From contig PKCI01000011.1 in assembly GCA_002862135.1 (NCBI GenBank), positions 74,195 to 138,194 of the forward strand: a DNA stretch of 64,000 bases, given 5' to 3'. Source of the stretch: Verrucomicrobiota bacterium. GTDB taxonomy: Bacteria > Verrucomicrobiota > Verrucomicrobiia > Verrucomicrobiales > DEV007. The position numbers were made by a program, and so were the translations under genes. Each line of letters begins with the position of its first letter. The first letter of the stretch is position 1. The notes under the pieces are model-generated. The model searched no databases. It saw only the letters and a list, made by a program, of their open reading frames with translations, and had not been told where the DNA came from. This document shows, piece by piece, positions 37,400 through 52,444 of the stretch.

Positions 37400-40114
<2,715 letters not shown>

Positions 40115-40203
40115 TACCACAAGTCGGGCACCGGCCCAGCAAGACTACTTTCCCACCTTTTACTTTCACACATTTCCACTGACCGCGAAGCGGTCACCCC
40201 GTT

Positions 40204-42846
40204 ATGGCAGACGAACCTGAAGCTCCGCCCCCATCTCACAGCGACATCGAGCCCATCAGCGTGGCCGATGAAATGTCGAATTCGTTCCTCGACTATTCGA
40301 TGTCGGTCATTATCTCGCGGGCCCTGCCCGATGCTCGTGACGGCCTTAAGCCTTCGCAGCGACGCATCCTGCTCGCAATGAATGACCTCGGTCTCGCTCC
40401 AGGCCGAAACTATCGCAAATGCGCCAAGATCTGTGGTGATACCTCCGGTAACTACCACCCCCACGGTGAAGCCACCATTTACCCGACGTTAGTGAACATG
40501 GCTCAGCCTTGGACGATGCGGGACATCCTCGTCGACGGCCAGGGTAACTTCGGATCCGTTGAAGGTGACCCGCCGGCTGCGATGCGATACACCGAGGCTC
40601 GTCTTACCCACCTTGGTCATGTGCTCATGGCCGACATGGAGAAGGAGACGGTCGACTTCGTCAAAAACTATGACGAAACCCGCCAGGAGCCCGTCGTTTT
40701 CCCCGCTGCCTTCCCTAATCTCCTCATCAACGGCGGTACCGGTATCGCCGTGGGTATGGCGACCAACATCCCGCCACACAACCTCGGCGAGGTCGTTGAC
40801 GGTATCTGCGCTACGGTCGACAACCCGCAGATCACCGTCCAGGAACTGCTCGAATACATCAAGGGCCCCGACTTCCCCACTGGATGTACGATCCTCGGAA
40901 ACCGTGGCGTTTACGACTACGCCACGACCGGACGCGGCAGCATCAAGGTTCGCGGCCGTGCCACCATCGAAGAGGACAAGAAGGGCCGTGAGCAGATTAT
41001 CATCACGGAGATCCCCTACGCGGTAAACCGCGCCAAGCTCGTCGAGCGCATCGCCGAACTGGCCAACGCCAAGATCCTTCCCGAGATCAGCGCCGTTCGC
41101 GACGAGTCCGACGAAAACACCCGCGTTGTCGTCGACCTCAAGCGCGACTCACGTTCCCAGGTCGTTCTAAACAACCTTTACAAGCACACCGCGCTGCAGT
41201 CGTCTTTCTCCGCCAACATGCTGGCGATCGACAACCGCCGCCCGCGCCTGCTCAATATCAAAGACGCCATCGTTTGCTACATCGAGCACCGCCGCGAGGT
41301 CATCCTGCGACGGACCCGCTACCTTCTCGGTAAAGCGGAAGAGCAGGCCGAGAAGCTCGAAGCCTACCTGCTTGCCCTCGGCAATCTCGATGACTTCATC
41401 AAGATGATTCGGGATTCCAAGACCCGGGATGAAGCCCGCGACAAGATCAAGGCTTACGACTTCAAACCCGAAGAAGCTGAAGCTCTTGGCATTCTACTGC
41501 GTGACCAGCTCAGCCTTCAGCTGAAGCCGGGCCGCTACACCTTCACCGACAAGCAGGTCGATCATATTCTAGAGCTCCGCCTCTACCAACTAGTTGGCCT
41601 TGAGCAAGAGAAAGTGAAGAACGAGTACGACGAATTGCTCGAACGCATCAAGGACCTGCTCGACATCCTCGCGCGAGAAGAAAGAGTACTCCAAATCATC
41701 AAGGATGAGCTGCTCGAAGTGAAAGAGAAGTATGCGACCCCTCGTAAGACGGATTTCGGCATCGACGACGGTGAGATTAATGTGGTCGACCTCATTGCGA
41801 ATGAGTCCAACCTTATTACCATTTCCCACCGTGGCTACATTAAACGGACGCTCGCCAGCGAATACCGCACCCAGGCTCGCGGCGGCAAAGGACTCAAGGG
41901 CATGGAAACCCGCGAAGCGGCCGACAAAGACGACGGAGACGACTTTGTCGAACACCTCTTCGCCGCGACCGCGCATGACTACCTGATGTTCTTCACCGAC
42001 ACCGGTCGTGTTTACGTCGAACGCGTCTTCCAGATTCCGGAAGGCAGCCGCATTGCCAAGGGCCGTTCCATCAAGAACCTGCTCAACCTGCAGCCGGAAG
42101 AGAAGATCGCTTCCGTTCTCCGAATCGAAGCGGTCGGCAATGAAGACAAGGATGCGACCTTCGTGGAAGATCGCTTCGTCCTGTTCGCCACCCGCTCCGG
42201 CAAGGTCAAAAAGACCAAGCTCTCCGACTTCCGGAATTACCGTAAGGACGGCATCATCGCGATCAAAATCGAGGAAGGTAACTCTCTCATCGACGTGAAG
42301 CTCACTGACGGTAACGACGAGATTTCACTCGTCACCAGCCAGGGCTACTCCGTTCGCACCAGCGAAGAGAACATCCGTCCGATGGGTCGACCGTCTGCTG
42401 GTGTTGCCGGCATTCGCCCCGGAGAAGGTGACTACCTCGTTGCTCTCGCCGTAGTGGACAACTCAGAGCAACTTCTTGTGGTCAGCGCAAAAGGTCTCGG
42501 TAAGCGGACGCCTTTCGAAGACTACCCCACCAAGGGTCGAGGCGGTAAGGGTGTCATCACCATGAAAGTCACTGAAAAAACCGGTCGCGTCGTTAAGGCA
42601 CTCCGCGTGGCTGCCGAAGATGACATCATGCTGATGACCGATACCGGTCAGTCTGTCAGAATCAAAGCTGAGAGTGCCCGTCTCACCGGACGTAACGCTC
42701 AGGGTGTGATCCTGATGAAGACCAAGGATGGTGAAACGATCCAGGATATCGCTCGAGTCGTAAACGAAGACGACGAAGAAGGAGAAGGCGAAAGCATTGA
42801 TGCTGAAGGAACGAGTCCTCCGGTCGAAGAGCAGGATCAGGATTAA
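40204..42846 (+). CDS. gyrA: DNA gyrase subunit A
   Basis: SNSFLDYSMSVIISRALPDARDGLKPSQRRILLAM, YHPHGEATIYPTLVNMAQPW, C-terminal beta-pinwheel. Confidence 0.97.
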   Translation: MADEPEAPPPSHSDIEPISVADEMSNSFLDYSMSVIISRALPDARDGLKPSQRRILLAMNDLGLAPGRNYRKCAKICGDTSGNYHPHGEATIYPTLVNMAQPWTMRDILVDGQGNFGSVEGDPPAAMRYTEARLTHLGHVLMADMEKETVDFVKNYDETRQEPVVFPAAFPNLLINGGTGIAVGMATNIPPHNLGEVVDGICATVDNPQITVQELLEYIKGPDFPTGCTILGNRGVYDYATTGRGSIKVRGRATIEEDKKGREQIIITEIPYAVNRAKLVERIAELANAKILPEISAVRDESDENTRVVVDLKRDSRSQVVLNNLYKHTALQSSFSANMLAIDNRRPRLLNIKDAIVCYIEHRREVILRRTRYLLGKAEEQAEKLEAYLLALGNLDDFIKMIRDSKTRDEARDKIKAYDFKPEEAEALGILLRDQLSLQLKPGRYTFTDKQVDHILELRLYQLVGLEQEKVKNEYDELLERIKDLLDILAREERVLQIIKDELLEVKEKYATPRKTDFGIDDGEINVVDLIANESNLITISHRGYIKRTLASEYRTQARGGKGLKGMETREAADKDDGDDFVEHLFAATAHDYLMFFTDTGRVYVERVFQIPEGSRIAKGRSIKNLLNLQPEEKIASVLRIEAVGNEDKDATFVEDRFVLFATRSGKVKKTKLSDFRNYRKDGIIAIKIEEGNSLIDVKLTDGNDEISLVTSQGYSVRTSEENIRPMGRPSAGVAGIRPGEGDYLVALAVVDNSEQLLVVSAKGLGKRTPFEDYPTKGRGGKGVITMKVTEKTGRVVKALRVAAEDDIMLMTDTGQSVRIKAESARLTGRNAQGVILMKTKDGETIQDIARVVNEDDEEGEGESIDAEGTSPPVEEQDQD

Positions 42847-42866
42847 GAGCAAGATCAGGAGTTGTC

Positions 42867-43937
42867 ATGGATAAGGATACCGAAGATTTCCTCTACAGAT
42901 TACTGAACACTCCGAGCCCGACCGGTTTTGAGGTTAAGGGTCAGCGTGTCTGGGCCAATCGATGCCGCGAGTTTGCGGACTCTGTCGACAGCGATTCCTA
43001 CGGCAATGCCTGGGCCACTATCAACGGGGCCGAAGGCGCACCGACAGTGATGATCGAAGCCCACGCCGATGAAATTGGCTTCATGGTCAAATACATCAGC
43101 GATGACGGCTACCTACGTGTCGATCGCATCGGTGGATCAGACTGGGCCACGGCACGTGGCCGCCGTCTGTGTTTGTATGGTGACAAAGGGGAAGTCCTCG
43201 GCATCATTGGTAACACTGCTATCCATATCCGGGACCGCAAAGACGGGGAAAAAGCGCCCGAGGTCCACGAACTCTATGTCGATATCGGGGCGAAAGACGC
43301 CAACGATGTCGAAGAGATGGGTATCCGGGTGGGACATCCCGGAGTCTACGCAGACAGCGCGGTTCCTTTCGGCAAGAACGGCATTGTTGGCCGTGCTCTC
43401 GATAACCGCATTGGCGGCTTTATCATTTCCGAAGTAGCCCGTCGCCTTTCCTCAGAAAAACCGACGGCTACCTGTATCGCACTCAATGCCGTCCAGGAAG
43501 AGATCGGAGGCTACGGAGCGACCATGGCTTCCTACGCGCTCAAGCCTGACATCTGCCTCGTTCTCGATGTGACGCATGCAACAGACAGTCCTGACATCAA
43601 ACATGCCCAGCATGGTAAAGTCACCCTCGGCGGTGGACCGTCGGTGACTCACGGGACTGCCAATCACCCACTAATCGTTGATCGAATTATCGAACTCGCG
43701 AAAACGAACGATATCCCGCTCCAACATGAAGCCTCTTCTCGTTTCACCGGAACAGATACGGACTCGATTTATCACCAGCGAGGTGGCATCCCCAGTGCTT
43801 TGGTTTCTCTGCCGCTACGTTACATGCACTCCATCGTCGAGATGGCGGATTTTGACGATGTGAACCACGTCATCGACCTAATGACTGCGTTTGTCAGATC
43901 GGTTGCCTCCGACGAGTCCTTCAAGGTGGAGATCTGA
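42867..43937 (+). CDS. M42 family metallopeptidase
   Basis: TVMIEAHADEIGFMVKYI, GRALDNRIGGFIISEVAR, NAVQEEIGGYGATMASYALKPDICLVLDVTHATD. Confidence 0.9.
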   Translation: MDKDTEDFLYRLLNTPSPTGFEVKGQRVWANRCREFADSVDSDSYGNAWATINGAEGAPTVMIEAHADEIGFMVKYISDDGYLRVDRIGGSDWATARGRRLCLYGDKGEVLGIIGNTAIHIRDRKDGEKAPEVHELYVDIGAKDANDVEEMGIRVGHPGVYADSAVPFGKNGIVGRALDNRIGGFIISEVARRLSSEKPTATCIALNAVQEEIGGYGATMASYALKPDICLVLDVTHATDSPDIKHAQHGKVTLGGGPSVTHGTANHPLIVDRIIELAKTNDIPLQHEASSRFTGTDTDSIYHQRGGIPSALVSLPLRYMHSIVEMADFDDVNHVIDLMTAFVRSVASDESFKVEI

Positions 43938-44050
43938 GTGATCTGACCTTTACCAGACCGGCGTCAATGCCAAAAGCTGTTCCACCATGGGCGGGGTCAG
44001 CTCACGAAGATTATCAGGCAATCCCGACTCCTCACGAAGAGGAGGAATAG

Positions 44051-44125
44051 CTCGTTTCAAACGGCGAAATCTCCCTGGAAGAGCAAATGGAGACTTTTGA
44101 AGAAGCTCTCAAGAACTCAGCCTCG
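44051..44125 (+). pseudogene. Possible remnant of exonuclease VII small subunit (xseB)
   Basis: LVSNGEISLEEQMETFEEALKNSA directly after an in-frame TAG; the adjacent frame reads GIARFK just upstream. Confidence 0.3.
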
Positions 44126-45337
44126 CTGGTGACCTTTTTCAATAAGTTCGATAAACCGACTCATTAGCTTCTCTTTGGAAGTGTAAGATGAGGCCTTCGC
44201 ATATTTCTCGGACACTCCACGCCCACCCTCATCCGCAATCGCCTTAATGTGATCGGCAATGGTATCCACCTCCCCCTGCGCGGATCGACGACAAAGAAAC
44301 GCGTCGGGGTGTTTAGCAATCAAGTCCCCCACGTGACTGGCCTCGGGCCCGATGAATAGAAACGGAGCTGAGATACTGAGAATGTTGTAGATCTTGCAGG
44401 GATGGATCATCCCGACAAACGGTTCCCCCATCACCACGACGTGGAGATCCGCTGCTGAAAGGGACCCTGCCAACTTCTCCATTGGCTGATAGGGCAGACA
44501 ACGCACATTTCGGAGCCCTCCGTCCTCGATACGTCGAGCAATCTTTTTGTGTTCACTTCCGCCACCGACGAAGAAAAAGACAAACCGTGTGTCTTCTTTC
44601 AACTTCACAGCCGCATCAACGACTGAGTCAAGCGGGTGACAGGGGCTGTGATTCCCGGAATACATGATGACATACTTATCAGTGAGACCGTGCTTCTCTC
44701 TGAAAAGGTCTCTCCCCTCGGGATCAAAGGAGACTTCGTCATCGAGTGACCAAGGGGGAATCACTTCGATTCTATCCTCCGGGATTTCTTTTGCCCGGAT
44801 GCGATCACGCATAAATCGATCGAGCGCGAAGATCTTTTCGGAGTTACTGAAGCTGAACCGCGACAAGGCTTCCAAAACTCTCGCCGGAAAGGACTTTGCT
44901 CGAAGCCAGCCCGCCGCAATCGCTTCGTCCGGATTCAAATCCATGACCCAGTAATAGAACTTCGCTCCACGAAGCTTTGCTGCTGCTGCCCCGAAAACCG
45001 AAATTAACGGAGGAGAGGTCAGGGAAACCACTGCGTCGAACCGCGGGATCGTCAGCAATTTGAAACCGCACATTACCATGAAGCTGGCAAAGTCGATGGC
45101 CCGACGCCACTTGGCGCCCTTTCCAAATCCAGTTGATGGTATTCGATAGATTTCAATACCGTTCCAGTTCTCTCGAGCCGGAAATCGTTTTTCTAAGTTA
45201 TCGTAGGCCCGGCTCCCTGCGATGACGGCAACTTCGTGCCCCTTCTCCCGCAGCCCCTGAGCCAGATCAGAGAGATACAATGCCGTAGCAACGACATCGG
45301 GATGGAAAGTCTGATTGAGAAGAAGGATTTTCATCAA
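44117..45337 (-). CDS. Glycosyltransferase family 4 (WbuB-like)
   Basis: MKILLLNQTFHPDVVATALYLSDLAQGLREKGHEVAVIAGSRAYDN ... VIMYSGNHSPCHPLDSVVDAA. Confidence 0.85.
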   Translation of the reverse strand: MMKILLLNQTFHPDVVATALYLSDLAQGLREKGHEVAVIAGSRAYDNLEKRFPARENWNGIEIYRIPSTGFGKGAKWRRAIDFASFMVMCGFKLLTIPRFDAVVSLTSPPLISVFGAAAAKLRGAKFYYWVMDLNPDEAIAAGWLRAKSFPARVLEALSRFSFSNSEKIFALDRFMRDRIRAKEIPEDRIEVIPPWSLDDEVSFDPEGRDLFREKHGLTDKYVIMYSGNHSPCHPLDSVVDAAVKLKEDTRFVFFFVGGGSEHKKIARRIEDGGLRNVRCLPYQPMEKLAGSLSAADLHVVVMGEPFVGMIHPCKIYNILSISAPFLFIGPEASHVGDLIAKHPDAFLCRRSAQGEVDTIADHIKAIADEGGRGVSEKYAKASSYTSKEKLMSRFIELIEKGHQRG

Positions 45338-45364
45338 GCGGTTCTGAACGGGAACAGACCAGTG

Positions 45365-46432
45365 CTAGAGGGCAGCCAGCAATTCAGCGACGACTTCCGG
45401 GTAGGCCCGATGCTCCGCATCATTGATCCTCGCCTGAAGCACCTCCGGAGTGTCCCCGCTTTCAACGGGAACCTCTTCCTGCCGCAGTATCTCCCCGGTA
45501 TCCATCCCGCTATCGATGAGGTGAACCGAGCATCCCGCGACAGAGTCCCCCGCTTCTATCGCCCTCTCGACGGCCCTGAGTCCGGGATACTTCGGCAAGA
45601 GGGAAGGATGCACGTTGAGAATCCGACCTTCGAAAGCACTCAGCAACGGTTCGCGAACGATGCGCATAAACCCGGCCAGGACGACGATGTCAATCGAAGC
45701 CGCCTGGAGCCGATCGAGTATCTCCTTGATTGCAGCATCCGTTAAACGCCCCTTTTTTGTGGTGCCGGGATCAATCACGATGCCAGGCACTCCAAAAGCT
45801 TCGGCATGATCGAGGATGCCTGCGTCGGGAACATCAGTGAGAATCAAGGCCACCTCGCCACCGAGTCTTCCCTCTGCAGAAGCCCGCATCATCGCCTCTG
45901 CGTTCGATCCTTTCCCGGAACCAAGGACGGCCACCTTCTTGACTGCATCTTTACCCACTGACATCTGCTTCAGTGTCTCGCTGGTCGACTTACCGGGTAC
46001 CAGTGAGAGAATTTCGATTTGGATTCCGAGGCGATCAAGCAACGCTTTTTCTTCATCGATGAGCGAGTCAGCTGTGTAATCCCCCCCTTTCGTGTAAATG
46101 TGAGGTTGAATTGCCTCGATCACACCCGTCGCACGCCGGTCTTCGAAAACCACAACCCGGTCGACAAACTCGAGCGCACAAAGCATTTCGGCACGATCTT
46201 CGACACCGTTTACCGGCCGCCCCTCCCCTTTTAATTCGCGCACCGAATCGTCCCCGTTGATGGCCACGACAAGACAGTCGCCCAGGGCAGCTGCCTCACG
46301 CAGGTAGCGCACATGCCCAACATGAAGCAAGTCGAAAGCCCCGTTCGTAAGAACAAGCTTTCGCCCCTCGCGGCCAAGATCTTCGCGCGCGGCAGCGACT
46401 TCTTCGATGGATGAGAGGTATCCTTGAGGCAT
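45365..46432 (-). CDS. Fusion of RfaE2-type (heptose-1-phosphate) nucleotidyltransferase and phosphoribosylglycinamide formyltransferase (PurN)
   Basis: N-term KLVLTNGAFDLLHVGHVRYLREAAALGD...IYTKGGDYTADSL; C-term VAVLGSGKGSNAEAMM...LNVHPSLLPKYPGLRAVERAIEAGDSVAGCSVHLIDSGMDTGEIL. Confidence 0.9.
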   Translation of the reverse strand: MPQGYLSSIEEVAAAREDLGREGRKLVLTNGAFDLLHVGHVRYLREAAALGDCLVVAINGDDSVRELKGEGRPVNGVEDRAEMLCALEFVDRVVVFEDRRATGVIEAIQPHIYTKGGDYTADSLIDEEKALLDRLGIQIEILSLVPGKSTSETLKQMSVGKDAVKKVAVLGSGKGSNAEAMMRASAEGRLGGEVALILTDVPDAGILDHAEAFGVPGIVIDPGTTKKGRLTDAAIKEILDRLQAASIDIVVLAGFMRIVREPLLSAFEGRILNVHPSLLPKYPGLRAVERAIEAGDSVAGCSVHLIDSGMDTGEILRQEEVPVESGDTPEVLQARINDAEHRAYPEVVAELLAAL

Positions 46433-46547
46433 TTGGAAAAGCTATCGCAAAATCTTCAGTCCGTCGTAAAAAAATTATGACCCGGTCCCCCCCTCTGCGC
46501 CGCACTTTCCGCTTTTCAGCACGCCTTTTTCCACGGACACTACCGCC

Positions 46548-47645
46548 ATGCATGATCCGCGCATTGACCAATTAGCCCGGCAACTAGTTCGCTACTCTAC
46601 CGCAACCAAGCGCGGTGAGAATGTCCTCATTGAGCTGTTTGATGTGCCGGAGACAGTTGGCATCGCATTGATCCGCGAAGTTCGAGCCGTTCGAGCGACT
46701 CCTTTTATCAACATTCATAACGCCAAGATCAGCCGGGAGATGGCCCGGGGTGCCACCGAAGATCAATATGCTTCCATCGCCAAAACCGCGATGCACCAAA
46801 TGAAAGCGATGGATTGCTATCTTGCGATCCGGGGCAGCCACAACGTCAACGAACTTTCCGACGTTCCTGCCAAGAAGATGCAGCTACTTTCCGGAAAAAT
46901 GCGCCCGGTCCTCAACGAGCGAGTCAACAAGACCCGCTGGTGTGTTCTCCGATGGCCCAATCCTTCCATGGCCCAGAGTGCCGGTATGTCGACTGAAGCT
47001 TTCGAAGACTTCTACTTTGATGTCTGTCTGCTTGAATACTCTAAGCTGAAGCGTGGCATGAATGCCCTTGCCAAGCTCATGACCGAGACCAATGACGTCC
47101 ACATCAAGGGGCCTGGAACGGATTTATGGTTCAACATTGCCGGCCTTCCCGGCATCGCCTGCGGAGGCACCCACAACATTCCCGACGGTGAATGTTTCAC
47201 CGCTCCGGTGAAGAATTCAGTCCAGGGTGTCATCAGTTACAACGCCCCGTCCATTTACCAGGGCATCGCTTTTGACAATGTGAAACTTGAGTTCAACGAC
47301 GGTAAAATCGTCAAAGCCACAGCCAACAATACCAAGGCTATCAACAAGATTTTTAACACTGACCCCGGCGCCCGCTACATCGGTGAGTTCGCGATCGGCT
47401 TCAATCCTAAGATCAAAGAGCCCATGCGCGATATCCTCTTCGACGAGAAAATCGCCGGGAGTTTCCACTTCACGCCCGGTCAAGCCTACGAAGTGGCAGA
47501 TAACGGCAACCGCAGTTCAGTACACTGGGATCTCGTAAATATCCAGCGCCTCGACTATGGCGGTGGTGAGATCTACTTCGACGGAAAATTGATTCGGAAG
47601 AACGGTCAATTTATTCCCAAGTCGCTGCATTCTCTGAACTACTAA
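46548..47645 (+). CDS. M29 family aminopeptidase
   Basis: MHDPRIDQLARQLVRYSTATKRGENVLIE; GTHNIPDGECFTAPVKNSVQGVISYNAPSIYQG. Confidence 0.85.
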   Translation: MHDPRIDQLARQLVRYSTATKRGENVLIELFDVPETVGIALIREVRAVRATPFINIHNAKISREMARGATEDQYASIAKTAMHQMKAMDCYLAIRGSHNVNELSDVPAKKMQLLSGKMRPVLNERVNKTRWCVLRWPNPSMAQSAGMSTEAFEDFYFDVCLLEYSKLKRGMNALAKLMTETNDVHIKGPGTDLWFNIAGLPGIACGGTHNIPDGECFTAPVKNSVQGVISYNAPSIYQGIAFDNVKLEFNDGKIVKATANNTKAINKIFNTDPGARYIGEFAIGFNPKIKEPMRDILFDEKIAGSFHFTPGQAYEVADNGNRSSVHWDLVNIQRLDYGGGEIYFDGKLIRKNGQFIPKSLHSLNY

Positions 47646-47656
47646 AATCGGGAGTC

Positions 47657-48034
47657 ATGCTGAAGACGCTTACGGCTCTCATACTAGGAGGTGCCCTTGG
47701 GGCAGTTTCCCGCTGGGGCCTTCACGTCTTAATCGATTCGCGTTGGGGAGGTGGCCATCTCTTTCCTTGGGGCATCTTCGTGGTGAATGTGGCAGGATGC
47801 TTCCTCTTCGGTTGGTTCTTTTCGATGTTCGAAGGCCGCCCCTGGTTCTCCAACACCATACAATTGGGGATCTTCACCGGATTCCTCGGAAGCTTCACCA
47901 CCTTCTCCACTTTTGGCTGGAACACCCTTGAACTGTTAAAAAGTGGTCACGCCGCGATGGCGATCGGAAATGTCGGAGCAAGCGTTGTCCTCGGTCTCCT
48001 CGCCGTCTGGGCCGGCTATGCCCTGGGTCGCTGA
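47657..48034 (+). CDS. crcB: Fluoride channel CrcB/FluC
   Basis: GGALGAVSRWGLHVLI ... PWGIFVVNVAGCFLFGWF ... GIFTGFLGSFTTFSTFGWNTLEL. Confidence 0.93.
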   Translation: MLKTLTALILGGALGAVSRWGLHVLIDSRWGGGHLFPWGIFVVNVAGCFLFGWFFSMFEGRPWFSNTIQLGIFTGFLGSFTTFSTFGWNTLELLKSGHAAMAIGNVGASVVLGLLAVWAGYALGR

Positions 48035-48426
48035 TCCAACTCCAGGAGAAACGTCCTCGGATTGACCATCAGGAAGGTCACCAGCGACACAGCGAAAAGA
48101 GGTAGGTAATCGGACATTGGGGCTCCTTGAAATCCCAATACCAGTCCAAAGATCGCAGAAGATTCTGCCAAGGCGAGGGCGACGATAAAAGCCTGATCAG
48201 CGAATGGCACCACCCTGCCCTCCTTTACAGAACGGGATCTGACAAAATGCTTTGCCCCGAGACTGGCGATCGCCGAAAGTAGGCCCGCCACATAGAGGGG
48301 GTTTTTCAGTTCACCAGAATTCGCTTCACCGGAATCGACCACTTGGAGGACGGCAAAATAAGTCACTACCGCCGACATCAGGGCGAACCAGATCAACCAC
48401 TTTACCATGGCAGGCAATTGGGCCAT
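48016..48426 (-). CDS. Hypothetical membrane protein
   Basis: MAQLPAMVKWLIWFALMSAVVTYFAVLQ...; several TM segments; start trimmed from 48516. Confidence 0.65.
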   Translation of the reverse strand: MAQLPAMVKWLIWFALMSAVVTYFAVLQVVDSGEANSGELKNPLYVAGLLSAIASLGAKHFVRSRSVKEGRVVPFADQAFIVALALAESSAIFGLVLGFQGAPMSDYLPLFAVSLVTFLMVNPRTFLLELDQRPRA

Positions 48427-48458
48427 TTTCTCCTTTGCGTCTCCGAATTTTGTTGGGG

Positions 48459-48821
48459 TTACTTCGCGCGGCGGAAGATGTAAAAGTTGTCGGAGGTAAC
48501 AGCGACAAATTCCCAACCACCATCTTTTTCCACTTCGACGATGGTGCGTGGAAGCATGTTGGATTTTGCGATCTTATCGACCATTTCCTTGGGAAAATTG
48601 ATCTCACCGTTCTCCGAGATCTCGATTCCCTCCTCTCCCGCAATTGCCCGAAATCCAATGGAATCCATCTGCTGAGAACTGAGCGTCTGGTATTCAAAAT
48701 CCGCGGCACCGCCAGGCATAGCTCCTCTGCCGCCCGAACCTAATAATCCAAAGTTGGTAAGCAAATTCAAGATACCGATAAGAATGATAAAACCGAGCAG
48801 AGAGAAGATCGCATTTTTCAT
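48459..48821 (-). CDS. Hypothetical membrane-anchored protein
   Basis: MKNAIFSLLGFIILIGILNLLTNFGLLG; start trimmed from 49028. Confidence 0.65.
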   Translation of the reverse strand: MKNAIFSLLGFIILIGILNLLTNFGLLGSGGRGAMPGGAADFEYQTLSSQQMDSIGFRAIAGEEGIEISENGEINFPKEMVDKIAKSNMLPRTIVEVEKDGGWEFVAVTSDNFYIFRRAK

Positions 48822-48903
48822 AGGAGATAATTCAAAAGTATGACGGGTTGAAGGCCAAAACCTCAACAGAATTCGACCGTCGTGTAAAGTGCATCCCCGG
48901 GGC

Positions 48904-49623
48904 TTAGGACGAGAACAGCAAATCAATTGCAGATGCCATCTCGTCGGTTTTAGCGAGATCAGCGAGCAAAATATCCGGCTCTCCGGATTCCAGTTGTTCA
49001 TAGCTGGCACCTCCAGTTGCCACCGCAATCACATGGGCCCCGAAAGCGCGGGCGCAGGCAATGTCTTTGAGCGTGTCACCGATGATCACGGTCTGCTGAG
49101 GTGCAAACCTCTGTCCGCTCATGCCTTCCGCCCGATCGATCGCAATTGGGCCCAGTTCGTTGCGCAAGGAATGATCATTCCCGTAGGCACCGAAACAAAA
49201 GTGATGATCGATCCCGAAATACCTCAGTTTAAGCCGGGCTCCGGCTTCGATATTCCCGGTCAACAGTCCCATGAGGCAATCTTCGCGCCGCTCAAACTCG
49301 CCAAGTAATTCAGGAACACCGGGCAAAACCCTTCCCTTTCCCCGATTCCGAAAATTATTCATACACCCGTCGAGCGCAATAATGTACTGGCTAAAAAAGA
49401 GCTCACGGTGACCGTCATGATCATCGATTTCAAAATGCTCAAAGAGGAACGCGACGACGCTGCTGTCTGTCGCTCCCCCAAGATCGAGAGCTGGAAAATC
49501 CTTCCCACGACAATGCGGAAACGCCTTGAAGAAACCCTCCTCTAACGATCTCAGGCCAGCCCCTTCTGTATCCACCAGAGTGCCGTCGATATCGAAGAGA
49601 AGTAGCTTGTCAGCCTGGCTCAC
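48904..49623 (-). CDS. HAD-superfamily hydrolase
   Basis: KLLLFDIDGTLVDTEGAGLRSLEEGF ... LLTGNIEAGARLKL ... VIIGDTLKDIACARAFG. Confidence 0.88.
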   Translation of the reverse strand: MSQADKLLLFDIDGTLVDTEGAGLRSLEEGFFKAFPHCRGKDFPALDLGGATDSSVVAFLFEHFEIDDHDGHRELFFSQYIIALDGCMNNFRNRGKGRVLPGVPELLGEFERREDCLMGLLTGNIEAGARLKLRYFGIDHHFCFGAYGNDHSLRNELGPIAIDRAEGMSGQRFAPQQTVIIGDTLKDIACARAFGAHVIAVATGGASYEQLESGEPDILLADLAKTDEMASAIDLLFSS

Positions 49624-49675
49624 CGGAATTCAGGAGTTCAGGACATCGCCCGGTCGGAACCGAGCGATACTGGGA

Positions 49676-50365
49676 TCAGGAATCTTTCTCCTCCTCCTCA
49701 ACTTCGGATGCTCTATCGCTCACCTCATCGTCAGCGTGCTCATCGTCAGCATCATCCTCTTCGTGAGCTGCGTGTGCGGCTTCCACCTCCTCGAGATCGA
49801 CGTCTTCATCGTCGGGACGGAATTTACGCACCTGTTTCTCTTTGGGAAGGGGCGATAGCATCATGAGGATGTTCCGGTTATTGAGCTTAGGCTCGAGGTC
49901 TACGTGAGCCATGCTCTCCAGATCCTCTTTGACACGATCCATCAATTTAAAACCAAGATCTTTGTGAGCCATCTGGCGGCCACGGAACTGAAGTTGAATC
50001 CGAACTTTAAACCCGTGCGCGAGGAAGTCTTCAGCATGGGTCATTTTAATGTTGTAATCGTGATCCCCGATATTTACCCGGAACTTAACCTCCTTTTCGC
50101 GCTTCTTCGGCTTTTCCGTCTTCTTCTGCTTGGACTGCTCGTATTTATACTTTCCGTAGTCAACAATGCGGCAAACCGGGGGCTTTGCGTGAGGAGCAAT
50201 TTCCACAAGATCGAGACCGAGTTCTTTTGCCTTGTTTAAGGCTTTGTGAGTTGGCAGCACGACGTTGTGCTCACCGTAGATGACTCGGATTTCGGAAGCT
50301 CGAATCCGGTCGTTCACCCGCGTCCTCGGCTGACGCGGCCTTCGTTTCATGGGTCTCTTAGCGAT
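49676..50365 (-). CDS. infC: Translation initiation factor IF-3 with acidic C-terminal extension (AUC start proposed; conservative ATG at 50350)
   Basis: RTRVNDRIRASEIRVIYGEHNVVLPTHKALNKAKELGLDLVEIAPHAKPPVCRIVDYGKYKYE ... IQLQFRGRQMAHKDLG. Confidence 0.93.
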   Translation of the reverse strand: MAKRPMKRRPRQPRTRVNDRIRASEIRVIYGEHNVVLPTHKALNKAKELGLDLVEIAPHAKPPVCRIVDYGKYKYEQSKQKKTEKPKKREKEVKFRVNIGDHDYNIKMTHAEDFLAHGFKVRIQLQFRGRQMAHKDLGFKLMDRVKEDLESMAHVDLEPKLNNRNILMMLSPLPKEKQVRKFRPDDEDVDLEEVEAAHAAHEEDDADDEHADDEVSDRASEVEEEEKDS

Positions 50366-50557
50366 AGCGAATTACCTCCAATAGGTGGGTGATAGTTTGT
50401 CGACAAATAGTCCTCCCATCGAAAGGACAGACTCTCCGTGAGTGAGGACCAAAAAGGTTAATTTCAAAGTTAATACCCTGGGAAGGGGTAAACGTTTCAT
50501 CTCCAGCGGCGAAATCAAGATCACCAAGCGCTGAACAGTAATGGTCACGCCAACCGA

Positions 50558-52444
50558 TCATAGACTACGGGAGCGAATCTCGGCGACGACCTGGTTCTTA
50601 AATTCGTCCACGCCGATAGCTCCGACATCACCACGATCACGGTGACGGACGGACACTTGATTCGATTCCTGTTCTTTCGCTCCGATGATTAACATATAAG
50701 GAATCCGCTCGAGCTGAGCAAGTCGAATTTTGGCACCGACTTTCTCGTTTGTATCATCCACCTTGACTCGAACACCCTCCTTGCGAAGCGCCTTGTGCAC
50801 CTCATCCGCGGCCTCGATGAACTTCTCAGAGATTGGCAGAATTCTGACTTGCTCAGGGGATAACCAGGTCGGGAATTTTCCTGCGAAATGTTCGATCAGC
50901 ACGCCAACAAAGCGTTCCAAGGAACCAAAAGGAGCGCGGTGGATCATGACCGGTCGGTGGGATGAGTTGTCCTTTCCGACGTACTCGAGACCGAAGCGCT
51001 CGGGCAGGTTGTAGTCTACCTGAACAGTACCAAGTTGCCACTCACGCCCAATCGCATCCTTGACAACGAAATCAATCTTGGGCCCATAGAAGGCGGCCTC
51101 CCCCGGTTCTTCTGCAAAGTCTTTACCCAGTGACGACGCGGCTTCGCGCAAGGCATCCTCCGCCTTGTCCCACTGCTCCGGCTCACCGACGTATTTGGTC
51201 GAATCCGGATCACGCAGACCCACCCTAACACGGTAGTCTTCCATGCCGAGGGTTTCGAGAACGATCTTCACGAGCTCAAGGCACCCCATGATTTCATCCT
51301 TCAATTGATCCTCCGTACAGAAAATGTGAGCATCGTCCTGAGTAAAACCACGCACGCGCGTCATACCGCCCAATTCACCCGACTGCTCCCAACGATAAAC
51401 CGTGCCGAACTCCGCGAGACGAACCGGAAGATCGCGGTAGCTTTGGTGATCACTCTGGTAAATCCTGATATGGTGCGGACAGTTCATCGGCCTGAGCAGG
51501 AACCCGGTGGTTTCCCCTGATTCAAGTTGCTCCATCAGATCCCCACAAGAGCGCCCCTCTTCCGCTAGCCCCTTAAGCACTTCTCTCTCTGCGAGCGGGG
51601 GAAACTGGGAATCTGCATAGTAGGGATAATGCCCCGAGGTTCGAAAAAGATCGAGCTTGCCAATATGTGGCGTAACCACTTGGCTGTATCCTTGGCGGTT
51701 GAGGTGCTCGAGGATGAAGTCCAGCAATTGCTGGCGGAGGATTGCTCCTTTCGGCTTCCAGAGAACCAGTCCCTGGCCGACAGCTTCGTCGATAAGGAAG
51801 AGATTGAGCTCCTTTCCGATCTTCCGGTGATCACGCAGTTTCGCCTCCTCAAGTTGTTCGAGATGCTCACCAAGCTCGGTCTTATTCTTAAAGGATGTAC
51901 CGTAAACTCGCTGCAGTTGCGGATTCTTCGCATCACCCTTGTAAAAGGCACTCGCCACGCTCATGACCTTGAACGCTTTGCAGTTCCCCGTGCGGGGAAC
52001 ATGCGGCCCCGCGCAAAGGTCCCAGAAATCACCGTTCTTATAAATAGAGATCTCTTCGTCTTCCGGAATCTCTTCGAGCAGATCAATCTTGAAGGTGCTC
52101 TCGACGTCGCGATCAGCAAGCGCCGCCAAACGCCCTTTCTTTGCTAAGCCTAAAGCTTCGTCGCGGGAAACCACTATTTTTTCAAAAGGCTGGTTTTCTT
52201 TCACCACCTTCTTCATTTCGGCCTCAATCTTCTCGAAATCATCCGGAGTGATTCGGTGCTCCATGTCGACGTCATAATAGAATCCCTGCTCAATCGGAGG
52301 GCCATATGCGAATTGGGCATCAGGCCACAATTTCGAAATCGCTGTCGCCATGACGTGAGCCGTCGAATGCCGGAGACGTTCCAGGTCCGACATCTGATTG
52401 CGCTCTTCGAGCGTCTTCCTCTGTTTTTCGTCCGTTTCAGCCAT
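50558..52444 (-). CDS. thrS: Threonyl-tRNA synthetase
   Basis: RLRHSTAHVMATAISKLWPDAQFAYGPPIEQGFYYDV, FLLRPMNCPHHIRIY, GGMTRVRGFTQDDAHIFCTEDQ. Confidence 0.95.
   Translation of the reverse strand: MAETDEKQRKTLEERNQMSDLERLRHSTAHVMATAISKLWPDAQFAYGPPIEQGFYYDVDMEHRITPDDFEKIEAEMKKVVKENQPFEKIVVSRDEALGLAKKGRLAALADRDVESTFKIDLLEEIPEDEEISIYKNGDFWDLCAGPHVPRTGNCKAFKVMSVASAFYKGDAKNPQLQRVYGTSFKNKTELGEHLEQLEEAKLRDHRKIGKELNLFLIDEAVGQGLVLWKPKGAILRQQLLDFILEHLNRQGYSQVVTPHIGKLDLFRTSGHYPYYADSQFPPLAEREVLKGLAEEGRSCGDLMEQLESGETTGFLLRPMNCPHHIRIYQSDHQSYRDLPVRLAEFGTVYRWEQSGELGGMTRVRGFTQDDAHIFCTEDQLKDEIMGCLELVKIVLETLGMEDYRVRVGLRDPDSTKYVGEPEQWDKAEDALREAASSLGKDFAEEPGEAAFYGPKIDFVVKDAIGREWQLGTVQVDYNLPERFGLEYVGKDNSSHRPVMIHRAPFGSLERFVGVLIEHFAGKFPTWLSPEQVRILPISEKFIEAADEVHKALRKEGVRVKVDDTNEKVGAKIRLAQLERIPYMLIIGAKEQESNQVSVRHRDRGDVGAIGVDEFKNQVVAEIRSRSL

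Follow-up and report, generated by a model that had tools for sequence, protein, structure and literature searches.

An RfaE2-PurN fusion protein is widespread in one order of Verrucomicrobia

Results

An RfaE2-type nucleotidyltransferase and a complete PurN share one reading frame

The window, a 64,000-nucleotide stretch of a contig from a verrucomicrobial draft genome (GCA_002862135.1, contig PKCI01000011.1), contains on its minus strand a single uninterrupted, ATG-started open reading frame of 355 codons plus stop (45365..46432) that encodes two enzyme domains. The N-terminal half (residues 1-156; 45965..46432, minus strand) is a nucleotidyltransferase of the RfaE2/HldC type, the C-terminal half (residues 165-352; 45377..45940, minus strand) is PurN, the GAR transformylase, and the two are joined by a linker of about 7 amino acids (residues 158-164; 45941..45961, minus strand) of which neither the sequence nor the length is conserved among relatives. 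The Pfam matches are CTP_transf_like (residues 28-139, E 5e-15) and Formyl_trans_N (residues 165-348, E 4.6e-49), and the RfaE2-type domain as a whole spans residues ~18-157. Among NCBIfam models, the PurN half matches TIGR00639 with 184.4 bits, above the curated cut-off of 150.1, and the best model for the N-terminal half is rfaE_dom_II (TIGR02199) with 157.4 bits, which is below the curated cut-off of 181.5; the same model returns 168.0 and 176.7 bits for two fused relatives and 184.8 bits, over the cut-off, for the split orthologue of the Spartobacteria locus L020. The HxGH nucleotidyl-transfer motif (H37-V-G-H40; 46313..46324, minus strand) is kept in the fusions that we tabulated, the extended motif TNG.FD.LH.GH..YL and the PurN motif N.HPS.LP each occurring in 77/77 single-ORF fusions. 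The catalytic residues of the PurN half, N273, H275 and D311 (45500..45616, minus strand), lie in the motifs NVHPSLLP and MDTG and presumably correspond to N106, H108 and D144 of E. coli PurN. A preliminary description made from the sequence alone, which proposed an HxGH nucleotidyltransferase of the RfaE2 type followed by a complete PurN with the catalytic motifs of both halves retained, is thus confirmed by Pfam, NCBIfam and the motifs.

The AlphaFold2 model of the fusion (mean pLDDT 89) consists of two well-formed domains, whose relative placement is uncertain because pTM is only 0.62. A Foldseek search with this model returned PurN structures for one domain and HldC for the other. PDB entry 3p9x is the top match of the C-terminal half both by sequence and by fold, and this half corresponds to a full PurN. 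Of the solved structures, HldC is most closely related to the N-terminal half (5x9q and 5xf2, 43-45% identity in structural alignment; 5x9q is closest by sequence, and the title of 5xf2 names B. pseudomallei HldC). Met157 as an internal start site for making PurN separately was considered and rejected as a general feature, this methionine being absent from L005, L006, L009 and other fusions; in the gene of the window alone, such a start may operate.

The fusion gene lies between an M42 peptidase gene downstream (42867..43937, plus strand; PF05343) and a divergent M29 peptidase gene (46548..47645, plus strand; PF02073), both conserved neighbours, the latter marking the slot also in Spartobacteria with split genes. 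Over positions 37415-52444 of the window, the order gyrB-gyrA-M42 peptidase-[fusion]-M29 peptidase-crcB-HAD-infC-thrS is conserved across the family. A WcaI-like glycosyltransferase gene (44117..45337, minus strand; NF007640), inserted next to the fusion, stands outside this conserved unit.

Purifying selection acts on both halves of a fusion that recurs in dozens of genomes

Scanning the GTDB species genomes recovered the full-length fusion protein at loci L004-L015, mostly from Verrucomicrobiales MAGs, many of which are the same genomes as some of those numbered G in the family counts. The preliminary description had called for a search for this domain order across genomes: in the family of the window (f1), 56/76 genomes encode the fusion in a single ORF, which in G396 is truncated where the contig ends, and in the sister family f3 of the same order, 50/68 genomes match over the full length within one ORF. 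Five further f3 genomes, four of whose sequences were read individually, carry both domains in one long ORF, bringing the fusion to at least 55/68 genomes of this family. The RfaE2-PurN fusion is therefore real and widespread in one order of Verrucomicrobia.

The window and its nearest relative, L004, are 90.5% identical over 6,966 aligned columns that include the fusion junction. In five pairs of relatives, Ka/Ks values of 0.03-0.09 (RfaE2 half) and 0.05-0.17 (PurN half) revealed purifying selection on both; in most of these pairs the value for the linker, which has only seven codons, was well above that of both domains. These results bear on the concern, raised in the preliminary description, that the reading frame might be an assembly chimera, to which one may add a pseudogene fusion without function. 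Although the draft genome of the window comprises 239 contigs (completeness 91.8%), the same architecture occurs in dozens of independent genomes, the ~90% identical locus of L004 spans the junction, and selection acts on both halves, leaving either artefact with a negligible probability and the worry about a chimera refuted.

rfaE2 and purN are mostly separate neighbours outside the order

Outside the order of the window, both domains, where they are found together, are mostly encoded by separate genes. Genomes of the Opitutae type (f6, f13, L025 and L028) and of family f5 carry rfaE2 followed by purN as separate neighbours, the purN match beginning 3-54 nt after the end of the rfaE2 coding sequence. 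In the Spartobacteria loci L020, L021 and L024 the two genes overlap at their ends (in L020, the purN ATG lies within the last rfaE2 codons, aATGgaaaagcTGA), and these split pairs adjoin a divergent M29 peptidase gene, that is, they occupy the same slot as the fusion of the window. In the sister family f2, PurN is standalone and RfaE2 was found in only 9/59 genomes. Split genes are also found within the mostly fused families, namely in G419 of f1, the other two examined members of its genus being fused, and in G237, G469 and G471 of f3.

To reconstruct the history of the pair we relied on a tree of the concatenated domains from fusions and neighbouring pairs, because a tree of RfaE2 alone with distant outgroups was suspect: foreign sequences were nested within the family, which is probably a long-branch artefact caused by the shortness of the domain. 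On the concatenated tree the split groups lie outside the f1+f3 clade, and the fusion of L015, from Spartobacteria, is placed among split pairs. Grouping all fusions as one clade was rejected (AU p 3e-59), the minimum being four changes, and with it the view that they all stem from one joining event and changed no further. The position of L015 among split pairs and the scattered splits indicate that the join occurred more than once, or early with several re-splits. Most likely, the fusion originated when the members of an old operon pair were joined in frame, either on two or more occasions or with subsequent re-splitting, and a small frame change at an overlapping rfaE2/purN junction would suffice to fuse the genes.

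RfaE2 co-occurs with the RfaE1 kinase

The genome of the window encodes a standalone RfaE1 kinase (G000:C1:46511-47479; 328.8 bits, below the cut-off of 345) adjoined by GmhA (178 bits, below the cut-off of 209), the pair lying on the same contig ~27 kb outside the window, and a WaaF-like heptosyltransferase (175.9 bits, over the cut-off). An HldD epimerase above the cut-off was not found in this genome (best match 93.8 versus 274.6 bits), nor did a protein search of it return a further RfaE2. Of the f1 genomes with a completeness of 90% or more, 39 have RfaE2 together with RfaE1, 4 have neither, and none has only one of the two (Fisher p 8e-6, a value that counts genomes as independent and ignores their shared ancestry). 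G434 fits this pattern: it has lost the fused RfaE2 half, kept RfaE1, and possesses an unlinked RfaE2 with 46% identity.

Most likely, then, the N-terminal half adenylylates D-glycero-beta-D-manno-heptose 1-phosphate to give ADP-heptose. A nucleotidyltransferase of another specificity, for example a glycerol-phosphate-type enzyme or one acting on another sugar phosphate, would accommodate both the score below the TIGR02199 cut-off and the lack of an HldD above its cut-off in this genome. We regard this alternative as very unlikely, however, since TIGR02199 is by far the best of the NCBIfam nucleotidyltransferase models (157 bits, compared with 40 for the glycerol-3-phosphate cytidylyltransferase model), the top solved relative is HldC, RfaE2 co-occurs with RfaE1, and GmhA and a WaaF-like enzyme are encoded in the same genome.

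The PurN half is retained where PurT is missing

From its motifs and model matches, the C-terminal half is predicted to formylate GAR in purine synthesis, with 10-formyl-THF as the formyl donor. The preliminary description had asked whether the genome holds separate copies of these functions: PurT is indeed present (593 bits), so the PurN half may be redundant or dispensable there, and a protein search disclosed no further PurN, as was the case for RfaE2. Two weak matches considered as a second PurN turned out to be PurU and Fmt, the other formyl transferases of this genome. Six genomes at least 90% complete are without PurT and all six have kept the fusion, and none of the genomes at least 80% complete is missing both. 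The fusion is absent from one genus (g212), which has neither RfaE2 nor PurN; nearly all its members possess PurT and are without RfaE1, and one of them (G404) has two PurT copies over the cut-off. This genus apparently relies on PurT.

The two halves have separate fates

In G432, G434, G448 and G452, the slot between the M42 and M29 peptidase genes holds a PurN without RfaE2. On the PurN tree, these PurN-only genes are nested at no fewer than three places within the fused clade, indicating that the RfaE2 half was lost repeatedly. The converse is seen in the fusion of G505 (L201:1679-2893), in which the RfaE2 half is kept and the PurN half is degenerate, with no NxHP motif and a Formyl_trans_N score of 22.7 bits, below the cut-off of 26.1. 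The linker ranges from about 2 to 33 residues across fusions and reaches 118-134 residues in G521 (L192) and G520 (L193), two large genomes in few contigs, where it is Pro/Ala-rich and replaces the more usual ~8 residues. Because the linker is so variable, a constant interdomain geometry is seemingly not under selection, and the two halves appear to behave independently.

Discussion

The fusion is very probably a pair of tethered, complete and independently folding enzymes that arose when an old operon pair was joined in frame, with no evident coupling between them. According to this model, rfaE2 and purN would have been long-standing operon neighbours, in this order, the stop codon of the first abutting on or overlapping the start codon of the second, and their union in one frame would have created a single bifunctional chain. 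The N-terminal half would act downstream of RfaE1, which the genome encodes as a kinase of its own, the C-terminal half would formylate GAR with 10-formyl-THF, and the gain from the join would be co-expression and a fixed 1:1 ratio, with no evident catalytic coupling.

The preliminary description went further and had the fusion functionally joining LPS heptose activation to purine synthesis. Such a coupling might be regulatory, linking the supply of ADP-heptose for the cell envelope to de novo purine synthesis, either because occupancy of one active site (by ATP/ADP-heptose or by 10-formyl-THF/GAR) regulates the other or because the fusion senses or passes on the state of a pathway. In favour of this idea, rfaE2 and purN have stayed adjacent in different orders of the class, and most f1 and f3 genomes have them fused. 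Against it, the linker varies from ~2 to 134 residues without sequence conservation, no fewer than three lineages have lost one half and another has a degenerate one, the genes are split in four genomes of mostly fused families (G419, G237, G469 and G471), and the two reactions share no substrate except purine nucleotide pools. We therefore consider regulatory coupling very unlikely, and the claim of a functional junction is not sustained by halves that are lost or degraded independently, a variable linker and a glycosyltransferase that is a local feature.

RfaE2 is normally a standalone protein (HldC) or fused to RfaE1 (HldE). The fusion's RfaE2 domain aligns to the C-terminal domain of HldE (positions 325-472 of 475), but HldE unites RfaE2 with its pathway partner, whereas here RfaE1 is separate on the contig and RfaE2 is joined to PurN; the fusion reaches only 141.5 bits with the full-length HldE model (cut-off 521) and has no RfaE1 kinase domain on the chain. 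It differs from HldC, a single-domain protein, in having two domains. PurN is likewise a domain of a multifunctional chain in the eukaryotic trifunctional GART, where it is fused with other purine enzymes, but GART joins steps of one pathway, whereas the partner of PurN described here belongs to an unrelated one. NCBIfam returned no model for the RfaE2-PurN combination, and we found no description of this architecture in the open-access papers searched; domain databases may list it. The fusion is apparently undescribed; the preliminary description, too, did not place it among the standard architectures.

Read side by side, these loci lead step by step from separate neighbours to overlapping genes, from there to a fusion and on to the loss of one half, for two enzymes without a shared pathway, and they caution against the 'Rosetta stone' inference: a gene fusion is not proof of a functional link. 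They also locate, for this order, the RfaE2 that the heptose pathway needs, in a gene that could easily be annotated as PurN alone.

A final observation concerns the glycosyltransferase, whose position beside the fusion had been highlighted in the preliminary description. The gene is where that description put it, but it is peculiar to the genome of the window: none of the relatives examined has it in this slot, and a functional link between it and the fusion is rejected on this ground. Being local to this genome, it does not speak for the fusion having a role at the cell surface. The M42 peptidase gene of L004 comes directly after the fusion. At the 3' end of the fusion ORF (about 45365-45470), within the PurN half, identity to L004 falls sharply over the final ~100-280 nt, which suggests that insertion of the glycosyltransferase gene replaced the 3' end of the fusion gene.
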